From an uncultured Pelagibacteraceae bacterium (GTDB lineage: Bacteria > Pseudomonadota > Alphaproteobacteria > Pelagibacterales > Pelagibacteraceae), in contig CACDCI010000004.1 of assembly GCA_902551215.1 (NCBI GenBank), positions 1 through 43,624 of the forward strand: DNA of 43,624 nucleotides, written 5' to 3'. A model generated the notes under the pieces. It was not told the DNA's origin and did no database searches. It was given only the letters and a program-made list of their open reading frames with translations. Made by a program: the position numbers and the translations under genes. The stretch's first letter is position 1, and the number at the start of each line of letters is the position of its first letter. Positions 3,228-20,100 of this stretch are shown in pieces.

Positions 3228-4856
3228 TTATATTTTGATTAATTCCCATTTTATAGTCTGGTTTTCATTTTGAGTCATGCCAGAAATAAATATATTTTGA
3301 TTTTCAACATATGAATTTTTTTTGCCAAAATACAAACCTGTTTCTATGTCAATAGTGTGTCCGTCGCATGTAAACTTCCATCCTTCATTTTCAAGCTCTA
3401 TAAATATTGATTTATTATCTTGTGTTTTCATAGTTTTTATATTTGGTTCTAAATGAAAACGAATTTCAAAATTTGTGCTTTTATTTTTTTTTTTTCTAAT
3501 TAGCTTATCAATTCCAATGAATTTGTTATTTTCTGGAAAAAATTCAATTTGTCTATCATGAATAATACCGTATTGTTTGCTATATCCATCATGTGCAGCT
3601 TTTATGCTCCAATAATTTTTTTGACATATAACTGATTTATTGGTTATTTTTAAACCACTTTCAACTATTGAATGTTTGTTACCTTGCTTTCTTAATTTGC
3701 AGGAAGATTGATTATCAATAATTAAAGTACTTTGTGAAGCAGTTGATTTTGAAAGATCATTAAGTTGATGTTTGTAATTTTGAAAATAACCAGAATTACA
3801 AATTAGTTTTTTTTCACCAGACATAATTTCAAAAGATAAAGCTCCTGCTTGATAGTCTCTAGAAAATTTTTTTTCTGGGGATGGGCCAATATCCATTATA
3901 AGTGCATTTTTTTTATTTTTTAAAATTGAATAACCAGCAACTTCATTATTTTCATTTTTAAATTTGTAACCGTATCTTTTTAAATAATTATCAAAATCGT
4001 TATTATTAATTTCATTATTTCCATTAAATAAAATATTTTTTTTAAAATTTTGGAAAATTAATGAGTAAGATTGACCCAAATGATAAATAGCCTCATCAAT
4101 ATATTCTGGTATATCATTTTGAGATTCTTTTAACCATTCTCTAATTAATATAAAATATTTTAAATAAAAATTTAATTGTCTTATACTTCTTGATTTTGGA
4201 AATCCTTCATTATCAAATGAAAATTTGATTATTTTTTTAAGTAAGTTTAATCCAAAATCTAGATATCCCGATTTATCATGAAAGGAAAGACCAGTTAGAA
4301 TTATTGCTGTACACCCTATCATTTTATCATCAATCCAATCTGATCTCTTTATTTCATTTATTAAGTGGTTAATTTGTTTTTGAATAATAGAATTAAATTT
4401 TGTTTTATATTCTTGACTACTATCTTCATAAGTTAATTTTGAATTAGATATCCAGGCAATTATTCTCTTTGAAAGAATGTCAACATCCCAACTTTTATAA
4501 TTATAGTTATGATTAGATTCTATCCATTTAAGAATAATTGACTGAGTAGACTGTTTAGAAGATTTTAAATCTAATGTGAATAACCAAAAAAAACTATGTA
4601 ATTTTTTATAATCTTTTTCTTTTATATTTTTATTTATCCAAATAGAATTTAGTGAAAAATCTTCTATTTTATTTTTTTTTTCATATTTAATTAAACAATC
4701 TAATATACTTGGGCTAGGTTTATATTCTAAATTTTTATCATTAATTTTAGAAATTTTTTTATTATAAATATTTGAATTTAAATAAAAATTTCTTGCTTTG
4801 CTTGTAAAGAAAAAAAAAAATTGACTTATGTAATTTAATGAACTTTTAAAAATCAT
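3228..4856 (-). CDS. Heparinase II/III family protein
   Basis: N-terminal helical region plus C-terminal beta part with DIGPSP...DYQAGALSFEIMSGEKKLICNSGYF and ASQSTLIIDNQSSC, as in alphaproteobacterial heparinase II/III-like proteins next to purH. Confidence 0.82.
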   Translation of the reverse strand: MIFKSSLNYISQFFFFFTSKARNFYLNSNIYNKKISKINDKNLEYKPSPSILDCLIKYEKKNKIEDFSLNSIWINKNIKEKDYKKLHSFFWLFTLDLKSSKQSTQSIILKWIESNHNYNYKSWDVDILSKRIIAWISNSKLTYEDSSQEYKTKFNSIIQKQINHLINEIKRSDWIDDKMIGCTAIILTGLSFHDKSGYLDFGLNLLKKIIKFSFDNEGFPKSRSIRQLNFYLKYFILIREWLKESQNDIPEYIDEAIYHLGQSYSLIFQNFKKNILFNGNNEINNNDFDNYLKRYGYKFKNENNEVAGYSILKNKKNALIMDIGPSPEKKFSRDYQAGALSFEIMSGEKKLICNSGYFQNYKHQLNDLSKSTASQSTLIIDNQSSCKLRKQGNKHSIVESGLKITNKSVICQKNYWSIKAAHDGYSKQYGIIHDRQIEFFPENNKFIGIDKLIRKKKNKSTNFEIRFHLEPNIKTMKTQDNKSIFIELENEGWKFTCDGHTIDIETGLYFGKKNSYVENQNIFISGMTQNENQTIKWELIKI

Positions 4857-4862
4857 TACTCT

Positions 4863-5522
4863 TTAACTTGCTTTTAAAGTATCAATATTTTTTTTAATAT
4901 TACCATTGTTGTTTTTGAAAATTGTTGTGCCTGAAACAAGAATATTTGCCCCAGCTTCTATTGCAAGCTTACTGTTATCAAAATTGATTCCACCATCAAC
5001 TTCAATGTCAAAATTAAAATTTTGTTGATCTTTTATTTTTTTTAATTCTTTTATTTTTACTAAAACTTCAGGCATAAACTTCTGACCTCCAAAACCAGGA
5101 TGAACGCTCATTATTAAAATTAAATTTATTTCAGAAAAAAATTCTTTAATAATATCAATTTTTGTATTGGGATTTAAAGAAACCCCAACTTTTTTTCCTA
5201 GCTCTTTTATATGATTAATTGATTCTTTTAAATCGTCGGTTGCTTCTGGATGTATTGTTATAATATCAGCTCCAGCTTCAGCATAATTTTTAATATATTT
5301 ATGAACTGGCGCTATCATCAAATGAACATCGAAAGGTAATTTTGTATAATTTCTCAAAGTTTTAATTACTGGCGGTCCTATAGTTAAATTTGGAACAAAA
5401 TGACCATCCATTACATCAACATGAATCATATCAGCGCCACCATCTTCAAGTCTTTTAATTTCATTACCTAATTGACTAAAATCTGCTGATAAAATCGATG
5501 GAGAAATTTTTATTTTTTTCAT
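4863..5522 (-). CDS. rpe: Ribulose-phosphate 3-epimerase
   Basis: ISPSILSADFSQLGNEI, DMIHVDVMDGHFVPNLTIGPPVIKTLR, MSVHPGFGGQKF, IEVDGGIN. Confidence 0.97.
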   Translation of the reverse strand: MKKIKISPSILSADFSQLGNEIKRLEDGGADMIHVDVMDGHFVPNLTIGPPVIKTLRNYTKLPFDVHLMIAPVHKYIKNYAEAGADIITIHPEATDDLKESINHIKELGKKVGVSLNPNTKIDIIKEFFSEINLILIMSVHPGFGGQKFMPEVLVKIKELKKIKDQQNFNFDIEVDGGINFDNSKLAIEAGANILVSGTTIFKNNNGNIKKNIDTLKAS

Positions 5523-5565
5523 TGAATACTAAATAACTAGTATCAATTTTAGTTTTTAATTTGAA

Positions 5566-5916
5566 TTAATTTTTGCCAAAAATTTGGTAAATTTGTGCTG
5601 CAATTTCACTTTCTAAAGGAAAAGATAGCATACCCATAACAGAATATCCCAATAAATACGGCATTAGATAAAATCTAAACATGAAAAAAAACCATGCTAC
5701 ATAAAGTGGAACAATGGGTCTTATTATGAATGAAGGCGTTATTGGTTTGAAAAAATTTATTAATGGATCTGTTAATTTTACAAATATTTTCATAAAAAAA
5801 AATTCAGAATCTTCTCTTTGAAAGATGTTCATTGCCACTCTACCAATTAATGTCCACATAATCATGCCCATTACATAATCGATTAAATAGACTAACGGGT
5901 GAAAGTTTGCAGACAT
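5566..5916 (-). CDS. Small membrane protein, divergent YggT-like
   Basis: 116 aa, hydrophobic; LIGRVAMNIF...LTDPLINFFKPITPSFIIRPIVPLYVAWFFFM resembles the YggT repeat layout. Confidence 0.5.
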   Translation of the reverse strand: MSANFHPLVYLIDYVMGMIMWTLIGRVAMNIFQREDSEFFFMKIFVKLTDPLINFFKPITPSFIIRPIVPLYVAWFFFMFRFYLMPYLLGYSVMGMLSFPLESEIAAQIYQIFGKN

Positions 5917-5932
5917 TTAAGATTTCTAGATT

Positions 5933-5959
5933 AAAAGGGGCGAAACTATCGCCCCTTAA
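5933..5959 (-). terminator. Rho-independent terminator downstream of the SSS symporter operon (possibly bidirectional)
   Basis: AAGGGGCGA-AACTA-TCGCCCCTT inverted repeat; on the minus strand followed by TTTTAAT. Confidence 0.8.
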
Positions 5960-5974
5960 AATTATATAATTATT

Positions 5975-7834
5975 TTAGTGTTGTTTTCCAAGTATTGTTC
6001 TACCGCTAGGTATACGTACTTCATCAACCATTCTTTGAGTAGCAGCATCAGGTGCTTTAGTCATTAAACTAACAACAACCATAGCAATTAAACTAACTGT
6101 TGCTCCAACTATTCCAAATGTAAGGTTAGTTATATCCCAGAATCCACACTTAGCACCTTCTGCACAAGTCATTACCCATATTAAGTATGCAGTTCCGGAA
6201 AGTAGTCCTAGTACCATACCTGCAATAGCACCTTGTGCATTTGCTCTCTTCCACCATACTCCTAGTACTAGTGGGAAAAACAATCCTGACATTGCAAAAT
6301 CAAAAGCCCATATAACTGAACCTAAGATCTGTTTTATACCCATGGCTGCAATAGTTGCTGCAGCAAAACCAATTACAACAAGTAGTGCCCTTGCAACAAT
6401 TAATCTTTTTGCAGTTTCTGCTTTAGGATCAATGATCTTGTAGTACAAGTCATGAGATAAAGCATTTGCAATTGCTAAAACTAAACCATCAGCAGTAGAC
6501 ATGGCAGCAGCCATACCTCCAGCGGCAACCAGTCCTGAAATTACATAAGGTAATCCAGCGATTTCCGGTGTTGCTAATACAACGGCTTTACCACCCATAA
6601 AGAACTCGTTTAACTCTAAAGTTCCATTTGAGTTAAAGTCTTGAACTAGCATTAGTTTTGCTTGGTTCCAGTTTTTATACCATTCTAATGCTTCAACTTC
6701 CGCAATTGATTTACCAATAATTCCTGTTGTCAGGGTTGGATCCATCAGTGATAGTTTTGATAACGTTGCTAACATTGGTGCAGAAGAATAAAGTAGGAAT
6801 ATAAAGAACAATGACCAGCCTACTGATCTTCTAGCAGTTTTAACACTTGGAGTAGTAAAATATCTCATCATAACGTGAGGTAATGACGCTGTTCCAGCCA
6901 TCATACAAATCGCTAACGAGATAAATTTCCAAGGAGTAGTATTAACTTCAGAGTGAGCTTTAGTAATACCAGATAATACCCACTTAGCTTCTCCAGGCTC
7001 TACTTTCGTTGCTTCTTTAAGCATCGCCATGTTTTCTGGAGAGTTTTTAATAATACCAAACTGAGCTTCCAATTCAGAAATTCTTGCAACTTCGTCTGCT
7101 AACATTAAATGTGGGAACCAATTCCCTCCAATTTTGCTACCAATCCAAAATACAGGTAACAAGTATGCTATAATTAGCACAATGTATTGTGCAACCTGCG
7201 TCCAGGTAACTGCCCTCATTCCACCTAGCATTGAACATATAAGTATACCTGCAAGCCCTATATAAACAGCATATTTAAAATCAATATCTAAAGCCACAGA
7301 AGCAATTGTTCCTGTTGCATTAATTTGAGCTGTCACATAAGTGAATGAAGCTACTGTTAAAACTACAACGGCACATACTCTTGCTACGTTTCCACCATAT
7401 CTTGTACCAATAAAATCTGGAACTGTATAACATCCAAATTTTCTTAAATAAGGTGCTAACAAAGAAGCAACAAGTACATATCCACCTGTCCATCCAACTA
7501 ATAAAGCCATATATCCGTAGCCTTTAAAGTAAATTCCACCTGCCATTGCAACGAATGATGCTCCAGACATCCAGTCTGCTGCAGTTGCCATTCCGTTGAA
7601 TACAGTTGGAACTTGTCTTCCTGCTACGTAATAAGCGTCAAGCTGAAGTGTACGTGACAGATACCCAATCAATGCATAAATAAAAACAGTAAATGCTACA
7701 AAGAAAACACCTATTGCCTCCTTGCTCATTCCCATTGACTCGGCAATTGCCATTAAGATTATAAATACTAGGAAACCTCCAGTATATATTCCATAGACTT
7801 TTGGTAAATTATCTATAAATTTTCCTTTAATCAT
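5975..7834 (-). CDS. Sodium:solute symporter (SSS family, acetate permease-like)
   Basis: 619 aa multi-TM protein; AGRQVPTVFNGMATAADWMSGASFVAMAG, GGMRAVTWTQVAQYIVL, ASLPHVMMRYFTTPSVKTAR. Paired with a DUF4212 small protein and near acsA. Confidence 0.9.
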   Translation of the reverse strand: MIKGKFIDNLPKVYGIYTGGFLVFIILMAIAESMGMSKEAIGVFFVAFTVFIYALIGYLSRTLQLDAYYVAGRQVPTVFNGMATAADWMSGASFVAMAGGIYFKGYGYMALLVGWTGGYVLVASLLAPYLRKFGCYTVPDFIGTRYGGNVARVCAVVVLTVASFTYVTAQINATGTIASVALDIDFKYAVYIGLAGILICSMLGGMRAVTWTQVAQYIVLIIAYLLPVFWIGSKIGGNWFPHLMLADEVARISELEAQFGIIKNSPENMAMLKEATKVEPGEAKWVLSGITKAHSEVNTTPWKFISLAICMMAGTASLPHVMMRYFTTPSVKTARRSVGWSLFFIFLLYSSAPMLATLSKLSLMDPTLTTGIIGKSIAEVEALEWYKNWNQAKLMLVQDFNSNGTLELNEFFMGGKAVVLATPEIAGLPYVISGLVAAGGMAAAMSTADGLVLAIANALSHDLYYKIIDPKAETAKRLIVARALLVVIGFAAATIAAMGIKQILGSVIWAFDFAMSGLFFPLVLGVWWKRANAQGAIAGMVLGLLSGTAYLIWVMTCAEGAKCGFWDITNLTFGIVGATVSLIAMVVVSLMTKAPDAATQRMVDEVRIPSGRTILGKQH

Positions 7835-8098
7835 TTAGTCATCCTCCTTTTCAGAGTAGCCAAATTCTTCATCTATTTTTTCTTGTCTACTTGCAAACCA
7901 AAAAATTAATATTACAAATATTCCGAGTGATCCTTGGCATGTCATATAGTATGACAATGGATATCCAAGAGGTCTAAAACTTGATGCTTCCATTTGGGCT
8001 CCGAAGAAAAAGATGCCAATTGAGAAAACAAACCAGATTGCTAATGTTATCCAAAGCAGATTTCTAGTTTTTTCCCAATGTTTTGCTTGTTTTGACAT
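7835..8098 (-). CDS. DUF4212-family small membrane subunit of the SSS symporter
   Basis: 87 aa, two TM segments, HWEKTRNLLWITLAIWFVFSIGIFFF...GYPLSYYMTCQGSLGIFVILIFWFA, immediately upstream of the symporter. Confidence 0.9.
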   Translation of the reverse strand: MSKQAKHWEKTRNLLWITLAIWFVFSIGIFFFGAQMEASSFRPLGYPLSYYMTCQGSLGIFVILIFWFASRQEKIDEEFGYSEKEDD

Positions 8099-8252
8099 AT
8101 TCTAACTCCCTTTAAGTTTAAAAAATCGTACCTTACTTATTAATAATTTTGAATGAAACCTAAAAGAAAGCTTAAAAATATTGAATTTTTTAATATAAAA
8201 CAACCTTAGGTAGTGTTATTTAATTAAATGATTTTTTACAACTGCAATTATT

Positions 8253-8879
8253 ATGGCCTTAAAATATAGATTAAATTTAAAAGATATAAAACTTGAAGAT
8301 TTTAAGATTTATTTATTTTCACTGTTTAAAGCCTTTATACCTAAAAAAAAAATTAAAAATATTAAAGATCTTAAAGAATTTATTCAAAAAAAATCATCAT
8401 GGGTTTCTCAGGTTACATTATATGGTTATCTAAAAACAAGAATGGGAACAAGATATGTTTTAATGTTTGATGATGAAATTTTTTTATCATCAATTAATAA
8501 AGCAAAGTGGAATATTTATTCTATCGCACTTCAAGATCTTACTTTTTATTGTCTATCATATTTATATGTATTTTATAACTACGACCTAACAACTAAGGCA
8601 AATGATATATATGAAGAATTTTTAAATGATGAAATAAAAAATGGAATGCCACAAGAAGTAATTTCAAAAGGAAAAGAAAAATTTAAAGAAAGATTAGAAA
8701 AAATAAATTGGAGAAAATATTATAATTCATGGCCATTTAATGAAAGTGCTTTAGCTTTATATGAATGGTCTCCAGTAGCTCAAGAATTAAAAAATTTAGA
8801 TAGAAAAATAGTTTTGAATTCTATGATTTTAAAATGGGAGAATATTCAAAAAGAATTTATAAAATTAATTAATTTTTAA
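8253..8879 (+). CDS. Conserved hypothetical protein
   Basis: 208-aa [35 protein letters not shown]; no family recognised; 4-nt convergent overlap with acsA. Confidence 0.7.
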
Positions 8880-10873
8880 TTATTTTTTCTATTATCAACT
8901 AAATTTTTAACAACACTCGGGTCAGCAAGAGTTGTTGTATCTCCAAGTTGATCATGTTCATTGGCTGCAATTTTTCTCAAAATTCTTCTCATTATTTTTC
9001 CTGATCTTGTTTTAGGAAGACCTGGTGAAAATTGAATGAAGTCTGGTGTTGCGATTGGTCCTATTTTTTTTCTAACCCAAAGTTTTAGTTCTCTTTCAAG
9101 ATCTCCATCTTCTTTTTCTCCTACGTTTAAAGTAACATAACAATATAAGCCATTACCTTTAATATCATGAGAAAAACCAACTACTGCTGCTTCAGCAACT
9201 TTTGGATGAGCAACAAATGCACTTTCTACTTCTGCTGTTCCAAGATTGTGTCCTGATACAATAATTACATCATCTACTCGTCCTGTAATCCAATAATATC
9301 CATCTTTATCTCTACGGCATCCATCGCCAGTAAAGTATTTTCCATCAAATTGTGAAAAATAAGTGTCAATAAATCTTTGATGATCACCATAAACTGTTCT
9401 CATCTGTCCTGGCCAGGATTGAGCTATGCAGAGTCTTCCTTCACATTCACCTTTTAAAGTTTTACCAGATTGGTTTACAATAACAGGCTTAATTCCATAA
9501 AATGGTTTTGTAGCGGAGCCTGGTTTTAAATTAATAGCCCCAGTTTGTGGACTTATTAATATTCCTCCAGTTTCAGTTTGCCACCATGTATCAACTATAG
9601 GACATTTTGAATCTCCAACAGTTTTATAATACCATTTCCATGCTTCTGGATTAATAGGCTCTCCAACAGTTCCTAAGAGTTTTAAAGATTTTCTTGATGT
9701 TTTTTTAACAGGTCCATCACCTTCTCTCATTAAAGATCTAATTGCAGTTGGAGCTGTATAAAAGATATTAACTTTATATTTATCAACTATTTGCCACCAT
9801 CTAGAGCTATCAGGATATGTTGGAATACCTTCAAACATTATAGTTGTTGCACCATTAGCTAGAGGTCCATAAATTATGTAGCTATGTCCTGTTATCCATC
9901 CAATGTCTGCAGTACACCAGTAAATGTCTTTTTGTTTATAATTAAAAATATATTGATGAGTCATGGAAGCATAAACCATATAGCCACCTGTAGTATGAAG
10001 AACCCCCTTAGGTTTTCCGGTTGATCCAGAGGTATAAAGTATAAATAATGGATCTTCTGCACTCATTTCTTCAGGGTTACACTGACTAGATACATTTTTA
10101 ATTATTTCATGATACCAAATATCTCTTTGATTATTCCAGTTTATGTAGTTGCCAGTTTTTTTGATTATAATACATTTCTTAATGCTTCGACATTTTGCAA
10201 GTGCTTCGTCAACAGTATATTTTAAAGGAATTATTTTTCCTCCCCTAATACCTTCATCAGCAGTTATTACATAATCTGATTTACAATCATCGATTCTTCC
10301 AGCAATAGAGTCGGCGGAAAAACCACCGAAAATAATTGAATGAATTGCACCAATCCTCGCACAAGCCAACATTGAAAATGCCAATTCAGGTATCATTGTT
10401 AAATAAATTGTAACACGATCACCTTTTTTTACTCCAAGATCTTTTAAAGCATTAGCAGTTTTTGAAACTTCTTTATGTAATTGTCTGTAAGAAATTTTCT
10501 TTGTATCTTTTGGATCGTCTCCAACCCATATAATTGCCGTTTTATCTTTTTTATCTTTAAGATGTCTATCAATACAGTTTGCAGAAGCATTTAAGGTACC
10601 ATCTTCATACCATTTAATACGAACTTCATCTTTACTATACTTTACGTTTTTTATTTTTTTGTAAGGTTTAATCCAAGTTATTCTTTTTCCTTCTTTTTTC
10701 CAAAATTCATCATTATTTTTTAAAGATTTTTTATATTTTTTTTCATACTCTGATTTATTAGCTAAAGCTTTATTGATCCAGTCTTTTTTGGTTTTAATTA
10801 TAAATTCTTGATTAATTTCTGATTTCTTTAATTTATTCTTAAATTTATTTTTTTTTTTTGATCTTTTAGTCAT
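8876..10873 (-). CDS. acsA: Acetyl-CoA synthetase
   Basis: [20 protein letters not shown]-type motif, [51 protein letters not shown]. Confidence 0.97.
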
Positions 10874-10882
10874 AAATTTTTT

Positions 10883-11297
10883 TTAAATATTACTCATCTT
10901 ATTTAATATTTTCCAGCACTTAGAATCAATAGACATTACGGATAATCTACTTTGTTTTATTAGAGACAAATGTCTAAGATATTTGTTTTTTTTAATATTT
11001 TCGAGCGTGACTGGTTTTTTAAGCATTTTTTTATATTTAACTTTAACAGAAACAAATTTTTTTTGTCTATCAGTTTTATCAATAAAAGCAGTTTTAATAA
11101 CTTCAACAATACCAACAATTTCTTTGCCAATATTAGAATGATAAAAAAAAACACAAATCTCCTTTTTTCATTTTTTTTAAATTGTTTGCTGCCTGGTAAT
11201 TTCTTACACCATCCCAGTCTGCACCTTTAAATCCAGCTTTTTTCTGTTGTTTAATAGACCAAACATTTGGTTCGGATTTTAATAACCAGTACTTCAT
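10883..11297 (-). pseudogene. EVE-domain protein (thymocyte nuclear protein 1-like), single-base frameshift
   Basis: Hand translation of the minus strand: MKYWLLKSEPNVWSIKQQKKAGFKGADWDGVRNYQAANNLKKMKKGDLCFF, then after a T9 tract (plus strand A9 11143-11151) the next frame continues YHSNIGKEIVGIVEVIKTAFIDKTDRQKKFVSVKVKYKKMLKKPVTLENIKKNKYLRHLSLIKQSRLSVMSIDSKCWKILNKMSNI*. Eight Ts would restore one ORF. Confidence 0.88.
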
Positions 11298-11384: not shown

Positions 11385-12600
11385 ATGTCAAAAGTTGTTT
11401 TTTTAAATTTGGGAAAACATCCTGTTACCAACTCTTACTTAAAAAATTTAAAAAAAAAAAATAAAGAATATTTTTATAATTTAAAAATAACCTTTAATGA
11501 AAAAAATTTCCTTGTTTCTTTGTCCAGCTATGTAAAACCAACAATGATGTTTAATAACAAATATGCACATAGGGCATCATCTTCAAAAACTATGAGATTG
11601 CATTTTAAAAAATTATCGGATGAACTAAAAAAAAAAATAAAAAAAATTAAATGTCTGGAAATAGGCAGTAATGATGGAGTTTTCATAAAGAATTTTAACA
11701 AAAACGATACCGTAGCTGTTGAGCCTTGTTCAAATTTAGCAAAAATAACTAAAAATTTTGGATTTGTTACATACCCTGTTTTTTGGAATCAAAAAATTGC
11801 AAAAAAAATTTTAGAAAAACATGGAAAAAGAAATATAATATTTTCTGCAAATACCATTTCGCATATTAAAAATTTAAATGAAGTATTTTTATCTGTAAAA
11901 AAACTACTCGATAGAAATGGAATTTTTATTTTTGAAGATCCATACATTTTGTCAGTTTTAAAAAATAATTCTTATGATCAATTTTACGATGAACACGCTC
12001 ACCTATTCTCGTATTTATCTGCAAGTAGATTAATTGAAAAATTTAAATTAAGAATATTTGATGCAAAGATATTGGATGTTCATGGTGGTTCAATTAGATT
12101 TTACGTTTGCCATGAAAATAGTAAGTATAAAAAAAATAAGAATGTAACTAAGATAATTAACACAGAACTCAAAAATAAACTAAATAAACTTAAAACTTAT
12201 AAAAAAATTCGCTGATAGAGTTAAAAAATCAAAATTTCAATTATTAAAAATTTTAAGAAAAATAAAAAAAAAGAAAGAAATTATTATTGCCTATGGGGCA
12301 ACATATAAGTCATCAACTATTTATAACTACTGCAAAATCGATAATAATTTAATTGATTACATTATAGATAATACAAAAAACAAACAAAATAAATATGCAC
12401 CGGGATCACACATAAAAATTATATCTCCATCAAAAGGTCTAAATAAAAAAATTAAATATATATTTTTGTCTGCATGGAATTTTAAAAAAGAGATAATAAA
12501 TAAAGAATTAAATTTTTTAAAAAAAGGTGGAAGTTTTATTACACACGTTCCAAAGCCAAGAATAATTAAATTTAAAGATGTTAAAAAAGAAATTTCTTAA
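11385..12600 (+). pseudogene. Sugar C-methyltransferase (class I SAM methyltransferase with Methyltransf_14-type C-terminal domain), single-base frameshift
   Basis: First part (11385-12215): CLEIGSNDGVFIKNF, FSANTISHIKNLNEVF, FEDPYI...YDEHAHLFSYLS. After the A7 tract at 12201-12207 the other frame continues FADRVKKSKFQLLKILRKIKKKKEIIIAYGATYKSSTIYNYCKIDNNLIDYIIDNTKNKQNKYAPGSHIKIISP...VKKEIS* to 12600. Removing one A joins them. Confidence 0.87.
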
Positions 12601-13849
12601 TTGGTTCGAGAGTAGTGACAAATCGTCAGAATCTAGAATTGATAATATTGATATAATTAATTTAAAAAAATGGAAATTTGAAAATAAATTTATTTATCAT
12701 GAAAGTAAAAGATTTTTTAAAATTAAATTTTATAAAATTTTAAGCAAATTTATTAAAAAAAAAATTTCTTATTCACCATTTATAGAGCAAAAAGAAGTAG
12801 GTATTTTAGGCATAATAGTTAAAAAATTCAAAAAAGGTTACAAATACTTACTTCAAGCAAAATTTGAGCCTGGAAATATAAATAAAATACAAATATCTCC
12901 AACTGTCCAAGCAACTAAAAGTAACTACACCAAAGTTCATAAGGGGAAAAAAGTAAATTTCATAGATTTGTTTTTTACAGAAGTCGAAAAAAAAAATTAT
13001 ATTTTTAATGCCAAATTACCAGAGCAAGGAACAAGATATGTAAATAAATTTAATCAAAATATTACAATAGAAGTAAAAAGTAAAAAATTAAATATTCCAA
13101 ATAATTTTCTATGGGTTTCAAAACAAGAAATTCATTCATTATTAAAAAAAAATAATCTTATCAATATGGATACTCTTTCAGTACTTTCTTGTATTGTAAA
13201 AAAAGAAACTTTTGATGTTCCATTGAATAGTATAAAAAAAATAAAAGATAAAATAAAATTTTATAATAATTCTCACAAAATAAAAATAATTTCTATTGAA
13301 TTAAAAAAATTAATGGGTTGGCGTTATCAAAATAAAAAAATAATAAATCTAAAAAAAGAATATTTTTCAATTATTGGGATTAGAACAACTGCAAAGTCAA
13401 GAGAGATAAAAATTTGGGACCAACCAATTTTGAAAGAATATCACAAAGGAATAGTTGGTTTTATAGTAAAAAAAATAAATAATAGTTTGCATTATTACAT
13501 GCAAATAGTCAAAGAACCGGGACATAAAAAATCATTATTGACTTCAAGTATCTGTATTAAAAATTTTTCAATTAAACACTATAAAAATAATTTTTTTATG
13601 AATCTTTTAAAAAAAAAAAATAGTTCAAAAATATTGTTTAATAAAATTCTTTCAGAAGAAGGTGGAAGGTTTTTTCATAAACAAAATAAAAATATTGTTA
13701 TTGAGTTAAAAAAAAATGTTAATATACCTGATAAAAAAAATTTTATTTGGGTTTCACATAATCAAATGGTTGATTTAATTAAAAAAGGAATTATTAGTAT
13801 TGAAGCAAGAAATCTATTTGTTTCTTATAACATTAAAAAAATACTATGA
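12578..13849 (+). CDS. NDP-hexose 2,3-dehydratase family protein (EvaA/TylX3-like)
   Basis: Two tandem homologous halves; VGILGIIVKKFKKGYKYLLQAKFEPGNINKIQISPTVQATKSNYTKVHKGK, EQGTRYVNKFNQN, NFLWVSKQEIHSLLKKNNLINMDTLSVLSC, repeated as GIVGFIVKKINNSLHYYMQIVKEPGHKKS...EEGGRFFHKQNKN...NFIWVSHNQMVDLIKK. Confidence 0.93.
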   Translation: MLKKKFLNWFESSDKSSESRIDNIDIINLKKWKFENKFIYHESKRFFKIKFYKILSKFIKKKISYSPFIEQKEVGILGIIVKKFKKGYKYLLQAKFEPGNINKIQISPTVQATKSNYTKVHKGKKVNFIDLFFTEVEKKNYIFNAKLPEQGTRYVNKFNQNITIEVKSKKLNIPNNFLWVSKQEIHSLLKKNNLINMDTLSVLSCIVKKETFDVPLNSIKKIKDKIKFYNNSHKIKIISIELKKLMGWRYQNKKIINLKKEYFSIIGIRTTAKSREIKIWDQPILKEYHKGIVGFIVKKINNSLHYYMQIVKEPGHKKSLLTSSICIKNFSIKHYKNNFFMNLLKKKNSSKILFNKILSEEGGRFFHKQNKNIVIELKKNVNIPDKKNFIWVSHNQMVDLIKKGIISIEARNLFVSYNIKKIL

Positions 13850-14982
13850 TTAAAGTTTGGGATTATTTACCAGAATATAAAAAATATAGAAAAAGTTTTT
13901 TAAATGCTATTGATGAAGTATTTAAAAGTTCAACATTAATATTTGGACCAAAATTAAATAAATTTGAAGATAATTTCAAAAAATATATTGGAGTAAAATA
14001 TGGATTAGGTGTTGGCAACGGAACAGATGCTTTATATATAGCGATGAAAGCACTAAATATAGGAACTGGAGATGAAGTTATAACAACCTCAAATACTGCC
14101 GTACCAACTGTCACTGCAATTGTTAATGCTGGTGCTATCCCTGTATTTGTAGATGTTAATGATTATTATTTAATCAATACAAATTTGATTGCTAAAAAGA
14201 TCACAAAAAAAACTAAAGCAATTATACCTGTTCATTTATATGGTCAATCATGTGAAATGGATGAAATAAATAAAATAGCAAAAAAAAATAATCTGTATGT
14301 TATCGAAGATTGTGCACAATCACACGGAGCCGAATACAAAAAAAAAAAAACTGGATCACTAGGAAATATTGGTTGTTTTTCATTTTATCCTACAAAAATA
14401 TTAGGAAGCTATGGCGATGCTGGCTTTATAACAACTAATGATAAAAAATTATTTGAAAAAATGATGAGAATTAGATTTTTGGGAATGGAAAGAAAGAAAA
14501 TGTCATCAGGTCATTGGAACGGAAAATATTATGCAGTAGAACATGGGACAAATTCTAGATTAGACGAAATTCATGCCGCAATACTTTTGATTAAATTAAA
14601 AAATTTAGAAAAAAATATAAAAAAAAGACGACAAATAGCAAAAAGATATTATAAAGAATTAAAAAATACGGGCTTGTTATTGCCAGAAGAAAATAAAAAA
14701 AATAAACATGCTTATTATATTTATGTAGTTCAACACAAAAAAAGAAATAAAATAATGTCCGAGCTAGTAAAGAAAAATATCCATTTAAATATTAGCTACC
14801 CTTGGCCAATCCATATTATGAAAGCATATAAAAAATATGCACTTAGGTCATCTAAAGATCTTAAAAAAACCAATTTTTTCTCAAAAAAAATATTCTCACT
14901 ACCTATGTATCCAGAACTTACATTAAAAAAACAAAAATACACAATTAATTCACTAAAAGAAATTCTCTCAAATTTAAGTTGA
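13846..14982 (+). CDS. DegT/DnrJ/EryC1/StrS-family NDP-sugar aminotransferase
   Basis: VWDYLPEYKKYRKSFLNAIDEVFKSSTLIFGPKLNKFEDNF, GVGNGTDALYIAMKAL, IPVHLYGQ, VIEDCAQSHGA, GCFSFYPTKILGSYGDAGFI (PLP Lys). ATGA overlap with the preceding gene. Confidence 0.95.
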   Translation: MIKVWDYLPEYKKYRKSFLNAIDEVFKSSTLIFGPKLNKFEDNFKKYIGVKYGLGVGNGTDALYIAMKALNIGTGDEVITTSNTAVPTVTAIVNAGAIPVFVDVNDYYLINTNLIAKKITKKTKAIIPVHLYGQSCEMDEINKIAKKNNLYVIEDCAQSHGAEYKKKKTGSLGNIGCFSFYPTKILGSYGDAGFITTNDKKLFEKMMRIRFLGMERKKMSSGHWNGKYYAVEHGTNSRLDEIHAAILLIKLKNLEKNIKKRRQIAKRYYKELKNTGLLLPEENKKNKHAYYIYVVQHKKRNKIMSELVKKNIHLNISYPWPIHIMKAYKKYALRSSKDLKKTNFFSKKIFSLPMYPELTLKKQKYTINSLKEILSNLS

Positions 14983-15789
14983 AAATTTTTTAATTATTTC
15001 AGATAAAAAAAAATCAAGATTATTTTTTGGTACAAATTTATATTCTTTTTTAATTCTAGATATATTAATTATTGGTTCATCATATTTTATTTTTTGATTT
15101 GAATAAATTATTTTGCAATTTGTTAGCTTTTTAATTACCAAAGCAATTTTTTCTATTGTGACTCTTTTATCTGAGGCTATATTATAAAGTCTATACTTAC
15201 TTCTATTAACAATTTTAATTATAATACCTATGGCATCATAAATATTTAAATAATTTTTTTTTGACTTTTTATTAATTGAAATATTTATTTTTTTATTTTT
15301 TTTTGAATTTCTAATTAAATTAGGAAGAAGATAAGTTTGTTTTTTAAAATTAAATCCATATAAATTTGACAATCTTACAACTTTAATATTTTTATTTTTT
15401 TGTGACAAACAAAGGTTTTCAGAAGAAGCTTGTAGTAAATTATAAAAGTAATCTTTCGAATTAATATTTATTTTAATGTTATCATTTTCTTTTGTATTTT
15501 TAGAATTTAAATAAACTCTTGTGCTAGATATGAAGATAAATTTTTTAAATTTGTTTTTTAATAAGATTTTAGATAATAATTTTAAATTCGACTCAATTCC
15601 CTTCTCAGGATTTTCTAGTACATTGTCGGAGCCAATACAATAAATCACATTGTTTAAATTTTTAGAAAATTTTATCTTATTTCTTGAAGGGAGAAAAACT
15701 TCGTATTTTTTTTTTTTTAAATATTTAACAATATTACTTCCTAAAAAACCACTGTGTCCAAAAATAGTATACTTAATATTTTCTTTCAT
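14974..15789 (-). CDS. NAD(P)-dependent epimerase/dehydratase (extended SDR), candidate NDP-hexose 4-ketoreductase
   Basis: Rossmann motif YTIFGHSGFLGSNIVKYL, FIFISSTRVY, VVRLSNLYGF, YNIASDKRVTIEKIA. Convergent 9-nt overlap with the aminotransferase. Confidence 0.82.
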   Translation of the reverse strand: MKENIKYTIFGHSGFLGSNIVKYLKKKKYEVFLPSRNKIKFSKNLNNVIYCIGSDNVLENPEKGIESNLKLLSKILLKNKFKKFIFISSTRVYLNSKNTKENDNIKININSKDYFYNLLQASSENLCLSQKNKNIKVVRLSNLYGFNFKKQTYLLPNLIRNSKKNKKINISINKKSKKNYLNIYDAIGIIIKIVNRSKYRLYNIASDKRVTIEKIALVIKKLTNCKIIYSNQKIKYDEPIINISRIKKEYKFVPKNNLDFFLSEIIKKFST

Positions 15790-15871
15790 AGATTAATATG
15801 ATTTAAACATTTAAATTTATATTTGTTCAGTTGCTAATTTTATTTTTATAAGTATTTTAAAGTATTTTAAA

Positions 15872-16957
15872 GTGAAAAAAATTTATTACATCGCCGAATT
15901 AAATTTGCCAAATCCATCAGCATATTCAATTCACGTAGTAAAAATGTGTGAAGCAATTAAAAAAACAGGTGCAAATGTTTGTCTATTAACAATTAATGGA
16001 GATAACCGATCATTAATTTCAAATTTCTATAATATAAAAGAAAAATTCAAAATTATTTCAATTTTCAAAAAAAAAATTAATTTAAATTTTTTTTTTAGAA
16101 TTTTTTTTACATTAAATATTTTAATAAAGACTAATAGTGCTAATTGTATATATATTTCAAGAAGTGTAGTTTTTGCGTTGATTGCATCTTTATTGAGAAA
16201 AAAAGTAATATTAGAATTGCATCATGAAATTTCTGGTTTTTCTAAAACTCTTTATTTTTTTTTAAAATATACTTATCAATTAAAAAATTTAAATTACATA
16301 TTCACTAGTAAAAAATTAAATAATATTTATAAAATTGAGAAAAATAATAATATAGTTTTGGATAGCGCTGTGAATATAGAAGATTTTAAAATAAAAAAAA
16401 AATTTAAAAGATTTAAAAATACATGTGTATATATTGGAAGTTTTTTCCAAGGAAAAGGTATTGAACAAATTGTAAGACTAGCAAATCTAGATGAAAAGAT
16501 GAAATTTCACCTTTATGGCGAAAAAAAATTTTTAAAATTTCAAATTAACAATAAAAATATAAAGATATTTAATCATAAAAGTTACAAAAAAGTACCTAAT
16601 ATTTTATCTTCTTATGATGTTGCACTTATGCCTTATCAAAAAATTGTAAAAGGCAGATCAAGCATTGCGATACAAAAATATATGTCGCCTATGAAAATGT
16701 TTGATTATATGGCAGCTGGAGCAGTTATAGTTGCTTCAGATCTGAAAGTTTACAAACATATTTTAAAAAATAATTTTAATTCTAAACTAATTCAATTAAA
16801 CAATGATAATGAATGGATTAAAACAATAAACAAACTTTTTACCTATAAAAACAAAAATAAATTTCTTAAAAAAAATGCTTACAAAACTGCAAAAAAATAT
16901 ACTTGGGATAATAGAGTCAGAAAAATTTTTAACAAATTTAAAATTGAAGTTAATTAG
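15872..16957 (+). CDS. Glycosyltransferase, GT4-like (GTG start)
   Basis: YIAELNLPNPSAYSIHVVKMCEAIKKTGANV, CVYIGSFFQGKGIEQIVRLA, YDVALMPYQ...MSPMKMFDYMAAGAVIVASD. Confidence 0.9.
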   Translation: MKKIYYIAELNLPNPSAYSIHVVKMCEAIKKTGANVCLLTINGDNRSLISNFYNIKEKFKIISIFKKKINLNFFFRIFFTLNILIKTNSANCIYISRSVVFALIASLLRKKVILELHHEISGFSKTLYFFLKYTYQLKNLNYIFTSKKLNNIYKIEKNNNIVLDSAVNIEDFKIKKKFKRFKNTCVYIGSFFQGKGIEQIVRLANLDEKMKFHLYGEKKFLKFQINNKNIKIFNHKSYKKVPNILSSYDVALMPYQKIVKGRSSIAIQKYMSPMKMFDYMAAGAVIVASDLKVYKHILKNNFNSKLIQLNNDNEWIKTINKLFTYKNKNKFLKKNAYKTAKKYTWDNRVRKIFNKFKIEVN

Positions 16958-16985
16958 TTTTATTAATAATTTTTTTAACCTATTT

Positions 16986-17981
16986 TTAAAGATTAAATAT
17001 TTTTTGTATTGTCTGATAGTTAAGATTTTTTTTATTATATTTTTTTACAAAAAAATTAAATAATTCATTTAAATTTTCTTTAAACAAAAGGAAATTTAAT
17101 TTGGAAATCATATCTTCAGATGAATTAAATGTTAGTCTATCTGTTAAATCATTAAAAAGATTTTTTGAATTCTTGTTGAATGCTTGAAATAATATCCCTC
17201 CACTTTCAATTATTTGTATACTTCTTGTGTACAATGTTTCTTCACCATCTTTTGCCATAAAATCTACACAGATGTTTCCTTGATAAAAATTTGCAATAGA
17301 ATTTGCATCATAATTACTTGGATATGATTCTGGATATATTTTTTTTAAATCATCTCCAATTAATATACATTTTTTTCCAAAAACATTTTTAATTTTTTTT
17401 ATAAGCTCAAGTCTCAGTAATATCCTTAGATTTATGTAAATTTTATGTTTTTCAATGTTGCTTAAATTATCTATATTTTGATTTTCCCAAAAAACTTCAT
17501 TATCTAATAAAGATAGGTTTTCAAAAATTTCTAATTTATTTTTGTTCCATATTTTTAAAGAGTTCTTATCCTTAATTTCGCTAACTTTCATTGCTATTAC
17601 AATTTTTGGACTACTAAAATTTATACTTTTAGCAAGATCACATGGATAAAAATTAATCAAATTATTTTTTCTTGAAAATAAATTTGATGCTGTTACAAAA
17701 TTATTTTTGTATTGTTGAAAATCTTTATTAATTTTAAAGTCTGTACCTCCAAACCAAATATTAATCGAATTTTTTTCGTTGCTTAAAAAAGGTAAGCCAT
17801 CACATGATAAGAAAAAAAATTTTTTTGATAAATTTGTCATTAATATTATTTTTCCAATATAGCAAAGGATTGGACCTGATAAGTTTATGATTTTAAAATT
17901 TTCAATTTTTTTACATTTTAGAAAATTATTTAATGATTGCCTTCTAAATTTATATTTAAATATAAAAAATATATACTTCAT
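16986..17981 (-). CDS. Hypothetical protein, possible glycosyltransferase-like
   Basis: 331 aa; INIWFGGTDFKINKDFQQYKNNFVTAS, ANFYQGNICVDFMAKDGEETLYTRSIQIIESGGILFQAFNKNSKNLF loosely resembles the C-terminal donor-binding half of some glycosyltransferases; position in the sugar island. Confidence 0.5.
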   Translation of the reverse strand: MKYIFFIFKYKFRRQSLNNFLKCKKIENFKIINLSGPILCYIGKIILMTNLSKKFFFLSCDGLPFLSNEKNSINIWFGGTDFKINKDFQQYKNNFVTASNLFSRKNNLINFYPCDLAKSINFSSPKIVIAMKVSEIKDKNSLKIWNKNKLEIFENLSLLDNEVFWENQNIDNLSNIEKHKIYINLRILLRLELIKKIKNVFGKKCILIGDDLKKIYPESYPSNYDANSIANFYQGNICVDFMAKDGEETLYTRSIQIIESGGILFQAFNKNSKNLFNDLTDRLTFNSSEDMISKLNFLLFKENLNELFNFFVKKYNKKNLNYQTIQKIFNL

Positions 17982-18052: not shown

Positions 18053-19126
18053 TTACAATTTAACTCCCGCACCTTTCAAAAACTTTGCTTTTTCATCTAG
18101 TGGCCATCTTGGTTTTGGAGAAAAATCTAAACTGTTAAACTTGTTTTTTTTAAATTTTTCTAAACCAACCATTGCAATCATTGCGGCATTATCTCCACAT
18201 AAACTAGTTGGAGGAAAAATAGGATTGAAATTTTTTTCCCTACAAAGATTTGTTAGATTTTCTCTTATTTTTTTATTTGCAGCCACACCTCCTGCTACAA
18301 CAAAAGTATTATCTTTACTTCCATTAATTTTTTTAAATTCTTCAAATGCAAATTTACTCTTTTTATTTAATATTTCTTCAACAGTTCTTTGAAATGAAGC
18401 TGCAAGATCATATTTTTCTTGATTAGTTTTAATTTGTTTAGAAATTTTTAGAACTGCAGTTTTAAGACCAGCAAATGATAAATTGCATCCACCTTTATGC
18501 ATTATAGGTTTGGGTAATTCATATTTTTTTGGATCGCCTTTTTTTGCGAATTCTTCTATCCTTGGGCCACCTGGAAATTCTATTCCAAGTAATTTTGCAG
18601 TTTTATCAAAAGCTTCACCAACAGCATCATCAATTGTTGTTCCTAATCTTTTATATTTACCCAAACCTTGAACGTTTAAAAATTGAGTGTGACCACCTGA
18701 AATTAAAAGTAATAGATAAGGATAGTTTAATTTTGAATTTAATTTAGGACTCAAAGCATGTCCTTCGAGATGATTAACTGCAATAAATGGTTTGTTTAAG
18801 GAAGAGGCTACAGATTTTCCAAAACTAAGACCAACTGCAAGACAGACAATAAGACCAGGGCCAGCGGTGGCTGCTATTGCATCAAGGTCTTTAAACTTAA
18901 CACCACTTTCATCAATTGCTTTTTTTGTTATTAGATCAATTTTTTCAATATGTGATCTTGCGGCAAGTTCAGGAACTACTCCACCAAACTCTTTATGCAC
19001 ATTTACTTGACTTGATACAACATTAGACAATATGATGGGAATACCTAGATCATTTTCTTGAATTACTGATGCTGCAGTTTCATCACAGCTTGATTCAATT
19101 CCTAAAATTATATGTTTTTTTTTCAT
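18053..19126 (-). CDS. tsaD: tRNA N6-adenosine threonylcarbamoyltransferase
   Basis: MKKKHIILGIESSCDETAASV, VAVNHLEGHAL-like, LLLLISGGHTQ, FPGGPRIEE-type, VVAGGVAANKKIR, CGDNAAMIA. The ORF extends to 19174, but Met at 19126 is the likely start. Confidence 0.96.
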   Translation of the reverse strand: MKKKHIILGIESSCDETAASVIQENDLGIPIILSNVVSSQVNVHKEFGGVVPELAARSHIEKIDLITKKAIDESGVKFKDLDAIAATAGPGLIVCLAVGLSFGKSVASSLNKPFIAVNHLEGHALSPKLNSKLNYPYLLLLISGGHTQFLNVQGLGKYKRLGTTIDDAVGEAFDKTAKLLGIEFPGGPRIEEFAKKGDPKKYELPKPIMHKGGCNLSFAGLKTAVLKISKQIKTNQEKYDLAASFQRTVEEILNKKSKFAFEEFKKINGSKDNTFVVAGGVAANKKIRENLTNLCREKNFNPIFPPTSLCGDNAAMIAMVGLEKFKKNKFNSLDFSPKPRWPLDEKAKFLKGAGVKL

Positions 19127-19176
19127 TAAATTAATTTTTATTAGTAATACAATCTCAATATAAGAATAAAGCATAA

Positions 19177-20100
19177 ATGAAAAACAAAAAAATTATTATT
19201 GGCTCTCGTGGTAGTAAATTAGCATTATGCTATGCCGAAAGAGCCAAGGATGAAGTTTTAAATATTTCACCTAGTTTTGAAATTGATGATGTTTTAATTA
19301 AAAAAATCAAAACTAAAGGTGACATAATTCAAGATATCAGATTATCAGAGGCTGGCGGCAAGGGATTATTTTCCAAAACAATTGAAGACGAACTATTGAA
19401 TGGAAAAATTGATATTGCTGTTCATGCATTAAAGGATATGCCATCACACGAAACAAGAGGGCTTATAACAAATTGTTTTTTAGAAAGAAACGATCCAAGA
19501 GAAATTTTAATTAGTAAAAATAATAAAAAGATCAAAGACCTTGCTAGCAATGCAATAGTTGGAACTTCATCTTTTCGAAGAGAGTTTCAATTAAAAAAAA
19601 TACGACAAGATCTTAATTATAAATTAATAAGAGGAAACGTTGACACAAGGATTAAAAAATTAAATGATGGTTTATTTGATGCCATCATTTTATCTTATGC
19701 TGGAATTAAATCATTAAATTTAGAAAATAAAATTTCCCAAACTTTTTCAACATCAGAAATTATCCCAAGTGCTGGACAAGGGGTTGTTGCTCTTCAATGT
19801 AGAGATAATGATAAAAATGTAATTGAATTATTAAAAAAAATTAACCACCAACCAACACATAATTGTGTTTTGGCAGAAAGAAATGTTCTTAAAATTTTAG
19901 ATGGAGATTGTGAAACTGCTGTTGGTGCAATTGCTAAAATTAATGAGGAAAATATTAGTCTTGAGGCAGAGTTATTTTCTTTAGATGGAAAAGAAAGATT
20001 TTATCATAAAGATTCAAAAGAAATTAAATTTGCTTTTGAACTAGGCAAAGAAGTAGGATTAATATTAAAGAAAGAATCTAAAAATTCGTATAAAAAATAA
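19177..20100 (+). CDS. hemC: Porphobilinogen deaminase
   Basis: IIIGSRGSKLALCYAE, IDIAVHALKDMPSHE, SSFRREFQLKK, RGNVDTRIKKLNDGLFDAIILSYAGI, GDCETAVGA. Confidence 0.97.
   Translation: MKNKKIIIGSRGSKLALCYAERAKDEVLNISPSFEIDDVLIKKIKTKGDIIQDIRLSEAGGKGLFSKTIEDELLNGKIDIAVHALKDMPSHETRGLITNCFLERNDPREILISKNNKKIKDLASNAIVGTSSFRREFQLKKIRQDLNYKLIRGNVDTRIKKLNDGLFDAIILSYAGIKSLNLENKISQTFSTSEIIPSAGQGVVALQCRDNDKNVIELLKKINHQPTHNCVLAERNVLKILDGDCETAVGAIAKINEENISLEAELFSLDGKERFYHKDSKEIKFAFELGKEVGLILKKESKNSYKK

Follow-up and report, generated by a model that had tools for sequence, protein, structure and literature searches.

The window analysed here, 43,624 nucleotides in length, is contig C4 of a SAR11-like bacterium (source genome of 806 kb in 61 contigs, 58.6% complete), whose relatives are Pelagibacteraceae. 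Between the acetyl-CoA synthetase gene acs (8876-10873) and tsaD/hemC (18053-20100) it carries a low-GC island (G+C about 19-27%) encoding a sugar C-methyltransferase, a two-domain 2,3-dehydratase, a DegT aminotransferase, a short-chain dehydrogenase/reductase (SDR), a GT4 glycosyltransferase and a weakly glycosyltransferase-like protein. 3-Amino-3-C-methyl-2,3,6-trideoxy sugars are known from actinomycete antibiotics, and EvaA-EvaE form the TDP-L-epivancosamine pathway of chloroeremomycin. We consider it probable that the core of the island, 11385-14982, encodes the central three steps of an EvaA/EvaB/EvaC-type deoxythymidine diphosphate (dTDP)-sugar pathway, whose vancosamine/eremosamine-like sugar would be finished elsewhere and put on a surface glycan. 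The core comprises the following features.

11385-12600, + strand: sugar 3-C-methyltransferase of the EvaC/TcaB9/KijD1 type, frameshifted (PF08421, PF13489 and PF08484; relatives' alignment; KijD1 match; TcaB9 residues)
12201-12207, + strand: A7 homopolymer, the frameshift site, one A longer than the relatives' frame requires
12578-13849, + strand: two-domain nucleoside diphosphate (NDP)-hexose 2,3-dehydratase of the EvaA family (PF03559, Hexose_dehydrat, twice, E 5e-95)
13846-14982, + strand: DegT-family sugar aminotransferase of an EvaB-like clade, probably C3-specific (PF01041, DegT/DnrJ, E 1e-110; PDB ranking; tree)

The order C-methyltransferase, 2,3-dehydratase, aminotransferase, termed cassette A, is found in the window and eight other assemblies (AAA288-N07, AG-457-I17, AG-313-M10, AG-439-I17, AG-333-M03, AG-911-K15, AG-447-O23 and a NAT118-binned contig). 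In AG-447-O23 (L068/L209), cassette A is joined with RmlB, RmlA, RmlD and RmlC in the same cluster. The NAT118 contig (L054, PABO01000029.1), binned as Chloroflexi, holds a SAR11-like cassette A and an FdtA-type C-methyltransferase set, and is probably misbinned. Several SAR11 assemblies repeat the order of C-methyltransferase and aminotransferase, which puts the branched-aminosugar gene set that an earlier, sequence-only reading had recognized in this SAR11-like genome beyond chance. Two further arrangements occur in SAR11. Cassette B combines the C-methyltransferase and 2,3-dehydratase with a Gfo/Idh 3-ketoreductase, RmlD and RmlC, often beside RmlA and RmlB, so that aminotransferase and 3-ketoreductase are alternatives at the same cassette position. 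Cassette C (L225-L233) consists of RmlB, RmlA, RmlC, FdtA, an SDR, the C-methyltransferase, RmlD and an aminotransferase; the sugar predicted from this set is a 3-amino-3-C-methyl-3,6-dideoxy form, whose synthesis would involve no 2,3-dehydratase. The C-methyltransferase tree separates cassettes A and B within a single SAR11 lineage, the support for A being weak (49).

The sequence-only reading had staked its case on 12578-13849 encoding an NDP-hexose 2,3-dehydratase, and this protein indeed matches the EvaA structure (PDB 4J7G) over almost its full length (E 1.7e-52). It is 42-44% identical to other SAR11 two-domain forms. In a family-wide sample, PF03559 is present in 19 of 297 genomes. Eleven of these 19 SAR11 genomes have a single-domain 2,3-dehydratase-like protein (about 227-253 residues) in place of the two-domain form (L036, L037, L040, L041, L044, L045, L047, L048, L049, L051 and L052). 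The predicted structure of one of them, of moderate confidence (pLDDT 75), matches half of EvaA (TM-score 0.76), and the single-domain protein may work as a homodimer.

The aminotransferase retains the pyridoxal phosphate (PLP) lysine. Its top matches in the PDB are 7b0d and 7n63, followed by the C3 enzymes QdtB (268 bits), DesV (215) and WbpE (213); the C4 enzymes perosamine synthetase, ArnB and WecE score 178, 151 and 147 bits, respectively. In a 74-row tree, it groups with eight SAR11 orthologues (SH-aLRT branch support 99) inside a 40-row clade (SH-aLRT 100) that includes 21 actinobacterial enzymes, most of them encoded within a few kb of EvaA, RmlC and C-methyltransferase homologues. QdtB lies near this clade, and ArnB and WecE are distant. 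We dropped the actinobacterial loci L187-L194 as proven glycopeptide clusters, given the uninformative open reading frames in high-GC DNA; they are EvaB-like by family and context only. The window enzyme is 64-68% identical to its SAR11 cassette orthologues (67-68% for those of G038 and G013), and the clade occurs in 14 of the 297 genomes. Further SAR11 genomes encode aminotransferases 50-56% identical to it, and in all eight of their loci that span the region, FdtA lies near a C-methyltransferase and an RmlD-like reductase. FdtA is a 3,4-ketoisomerase and a mark of 3-amino-sugar pathways. Taken together, the PDB scores, the tree clade and the FdtA genes beside related SAR11 enzymes strongly suggest that the window aminotransferase aminates C3.

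The C-methyltransferase region contains the families Methyltransf_13, Methyltransf_23 and Methyltransf_14, in line with the C-methyltransferase of the sequence-only reading, but it is not a single open frame. The first frame, 11385-12215, ends in a stop at 12215, and the C-terminal frame spans about 12208-12600, the shift falling at the A7 run. The 130 codons after the stop, including most of PF08484 (E 3e-34), are intact one frame over and free of stops. Both gene overlaps reported earlier, 23 nt at 12578-12600 and ATGA at 13846-13849, are present, the former only for the shifted frame. In the remaining cassette-A assemblies that cover the gene, its frame is unbroken. Against the PDB, an intact SAR11 orthologue matches KijD1 best (277 bits, E 2e-81), compared with 187 bits for the mycarose enzyme MtmC; the difference narrows to 235 versus 194 bits for the orthologue from the hydroxyl-type cassette. 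The predicted structure of the intact orthologue (pLDDT 88) superimposes over its full length on KijD1 with a TM-score of 0.95. Moreover, the five residues mutated in TcaB9 crystal entries (Tyr76, His181, Tyr222, Glu224 and His225) correspond to Y60, H160, Y201, E203 and H204 in the window, the TcaB9 numbering being taken as the chain index offset by two, which matches all five residue types. Of the TcaB9/KijD1 features tested, the three-domain fold (in the orthologue model) and the five catalytic residues (in the window) are thus present. A similar lesion affects the neighboring gene.

10883-11297, - strand: EVE-domain gene at the edge of the island, its frame likewise broken by a single surplus base in an A9/T9 run (11143-11151); intact in relatives

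In all ten relatives with the EVE gene at the same site, it is intact (137-139 residues). Because two one-base homopolymer lesions sit in adjacent genes and the EVE gene is intact in every relative examined, sequencing error is the likelier cause; for the C-methyltransferase, a sequence error or a very recent event is more probable than an old loss. Elsewhere, at 4982-6011 of L035 (G000:C35), a pair of overlapping frames corresponds to one protein family whose member in G154 is an undivided gene, which may point to a further frameshift in the window's assembly.

In the N-terminal domain, the CxxC motif is found in none of the 45 SAR11 C-methyltransferases, some of which are two records of one genome so that the independent genomes number fewer than 45, whereas every one of the 31 actinobacterial sequences carries both CxxC pairs. 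CxxC motifs persist in two Methyltransf_13 paralogues from the same genome; therefore, the cysteine loss is particular to this enzyme lineage, and we rejected genome-wide zinc scarcity as its cause. The SAR11 C-methyltransferases lend themselves to testing whether folding or catalysis depends on the conserved zinc site. A contig of a Candidatus Aenigmatarchaeota metagenome-assembled genome (L086) carries C-methyltransferase, 2,3-dehydratase and aminotransferase homologues together, and its C-methyltransferase keeps both CxxC pairs.

The supply of dTDP-4-keto-6-deoxyglucose by RmlA and RmlB was tested in the genome of the window itself. We found rmlB (418 bits, above the cut-off) and, at the very end of contig C21, the start of the adjacent rmlA, which is truncated by the contig end. 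The expectation that rmlAB would lie outside the window was thereby confirmed. The apt and GT2 genes beside this rmlB/rmlA pair also stand beside the rml genes of cassette-B genomes and AG-447-O23, where RmlC and RmlD are nearby. Furthermore, an RmlC-family gene lies beside the cassette in L046, L054, L059, L061 and L068.

These findings enable us to propose a putative pathway. Initially, RmlA and RmlB, encoded elsewhere in the genome, would provide dTDP-4-keto-6-deoxyglucose, which the 2,3-dehydratase would convert to a 3,4-diketo-2,6-dideoxy intermediate. The PLP-dependent aminotransferase would then aminate C3 of this intermediate, and the S-adenosylmethionine-dependent enzyme would methylate the same carbon, yielding dTDP-3-amino-3-C-methyl-2,3,6-trideoxy-4-keto-hexose. 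Afterwards, the vancosamine/eremosamine-like sugar would be completed, and its stereochemistry set, by a 5-epimerase and a 4-ketoreductase whose genes would lie beyond the window or in genome sequence missing from the assembly. Finally, a glycosyltransferase would place it on a cell-surface glycan. As judged from the enzymes encoded, the product is probably a 3-amino, probably 3-C-methyl, 2,3,6-trideoxy sugar; family, context and the published content of SAR11 islands point to this product and to its surface location. The remaining genes of the island bear on the last steps.

14974-15789, - strand: epimerase-family SDR of uncertain role (PF01370, E 5e-17; alignment)
15872-16957, + strand: GT4-type glycosyltransferase (PF00534, GT1/GT4, E 5e-13)
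16986-17981, - strand: weakly glycosyltransferase-like protein (PF13524, E 0.011, below the cut-off)

The GT4-type gene has a GTG start and an alternative ATG at 15944, and bears out the earlier claim of linked glycosyltransferases. The second gene of that claim is only marginal by its PF13524 score, and no relative of its product was found in the PDB.

Several observations weigh against the proposed pathway. The C-methyltransferase frame is broken in this assembly. The SDR, which is convergent with the aminotransferase gene, keeps its glycine motif, but YNLLQ replaces YxxxK, so that the catalytic lysine is gone. Its orthologues have YNSLK (L050 and L053), FNSLK (G038) and FNSLR or FNSIR (three others); relatives' RmlD-like proteins still have YAxSK or YGWSK. 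The SDR noted earlier is real, but an EvaE-like role for it is not convincing: after the YxxxK check, its standing as the 4-ketoreductase candidate was lowered to weak. The available genome sequence yielded no RmlD-like enzyme of the relatives' type. Likewise, RmlC was found in neither the window, from which the sequence-only reading had already noted RmlC/EvaD to be missing, nor the available genome; because the rml contig ends inside rmlA, the absence of RmlC and RmlD from the genome is not established, and the epimerase gene may lie beyond the contig end. In addition, several other bacteria have a dehydratase gene followed by genes for a Gfo/Idh/MocA reductase and a related aminotransferase, an arrangement that is also compatible with C4 amination in those bacteria. 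The EvaA/EvaB/EvaC-type set in SAR11 nonetheless stands on its families, gene order and precursor genes, without an intact C-methyltransferase frame or a convincing EvaE.

Amination at C4, after reduction and methylation at C3, would give a 4-amino-2,4,6-trideoxy-3-C-methyl sugar and call for a 3-ketoreductase encoded elsewhere. The aminotransferases that follow a dehydratase and a Gfo/Idh reductase in those unrelated bacteria are about 47-57% identical, and in G038 a Gfo/Idh gene lies two genes away from the cassette. However, both the PDB ranking and the tree group the window enzyme with C3 enzymes, at a distance from ArnB and WecE, FdtA accompanies the related SAR11 aminotransferases, and the window cassette has no 3-ketoreductase, an enzyme that in SAR11 takes the aminotransferase's position as an alternative to it. 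We thus regard C4 amination as quite unlikely.

If the frameshift is real, the C-methyltransferase would be non-functional or produced only through rare slippage. The product would be an unmethylated 3-amino-2,3,6-trideoxy sugar (daunosamine/acosamine-like), or the cassette would be decaying. Such a view draws on the broken frame, which leaves the last domain out of frame, on the second frameshift 1 kb away, and on the end branch of the window enzyme, the longest of its group (0.56). Yet both lesions are single extra homopolymer bases, the EVE gene is whole in the relatives, the out-of-frame half still encodes a full, high-scoring domain without stops, the catalytic residues are kept, and the dehydratase and aminotransferase frames are open. 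We hold a real frameshift to be unlikely, though it keeps an appreciable share of the probability. Alternatively, the sugar might be attached not to a lipopolysaccharide-like surface glycan but to a protein or a secreted small molecule: this chemistry is known for its use in antibiotics, and GT41-type glycosyltransferases occur in SAR11 genomes, one of them beside the cassette in AG-439-I17. This seems decidedly improbable, as no scaffold gene, whether of polyketide, peptide-synthetase or other type, lies in the window, the genes linked to the cassette encode glycosyltransferases, and published work assigns the sugar islands of SAR11 to the cell surface (PMC2217521).

The genes acs and tsaD lie together in all 30 other genomes of the genus that have both on one contig, at a spacing of 0.5 to 7.5 kb (7.2 kb in the window). 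The spacing is below 0.7 kb in 14 of the 30, and the EVE gene fills the gap in all eight such sites read. AG-439-I17 carries cassette A at the same acs/tsaD site, and G604 has other genes there, sugar-related by inspection of the sequence. The acs/tsaD site that hosts the island is variable. In AG-439-I17 (L207, G302), the island with cassette A also holds, at 4835-8154, the gene of an AlwI-type restriction endonuclease (E 1e-63) together with two methylase-like genes. A virus-borne cassette was rejected: a related dehydratase is on only two IMG/VR contigs, in a different context. More broadly, SAR11 may possess modular C3-branched dTDP-sugar cassettes, in which A, B or C modules join a single C-methyltransferase family that lacks zinc cysteines. 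Exchanging one enzyme, at a variable site such as acs/tsaD, would then toggle C3 of the surface sugar between amino and hydroxyl, or its C2 between deoxy and hydroxyl; we judge the case for this model to be evenly balanced.

In summary, the locus is a SAR11 variant of a known pathway type, real and chemically sensible, with two finishing steps not located. Among the open-access papers searched, there was none joining SAR11 with deoxysugar or with O-antigen and aminosugar, nor any joining EvaA, dehydratase and vancosamine. A pathway of this kind in the ocean's most abundant bacterial group, near-complete in close relatives, suggests that these sugars also serve as building blocks for the surface glycans of streamlined marine bacteria. 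With nine assemblies of one gene order and two further cassette types built on the same C-methyltransferase family, single-enzyme exchange becomes testable as a source of surface-sugar variety, and such variation, if true, is possibly under phage or grazer pressure.

Among known systems, the published SAR11 hypervariable region HVR2 is likewise an AT-rich variable island with sugar genes; it sits between the 5S and 23S rRNA genes (PMC2217521), which rules it out as the present island, located at acs/tsaD and much smaller. Virenose of Coxiella burnetii, a 3-C-methyl-6-deoxy sugar of lipopolysaccharide assigned to a TylCIII-type C-methyltransferase (PMC3539893), offers a 3-C-methyl-branched sugar in a Gram-negative surface glycan, and differs in having neither 2-deoxygenation nor amination. 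The C-methyltransferase resembles the C-3'-methyltransferases KijD1 and TcaB9 (PDB 5T64, 3NDI) in fold, catalytic residues and the C-terminal PF08484, but all 45 SAR11 sequences are without the zinc-binding CxxC pairs and the window copy is frameshifted. The aminotransferase shares family and PLP lysine with the C3 enzymes QdtB, DesV and the FdtB type, its nearest group of known specificity in the PDB and the tree, although QdtB has LIHYPIP where the EvaB-type clade has NISYPWP. Compared with EvaA-EvaE and similar actinobacterial clusters, the SAR11 system has no antibiotic scaffold, its C-methyltransferase has no zinc cysteines, an RmlD-like reductase serves in several relatives, and the window itself has neither EvaD nor a convincing EvaE. 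What the two share is the close grouping of the 2,3-dehydratase, aminotransferase and C-methyltransferase families, and in SAR11 relatives RmlC and a ketoreductase complete the set.

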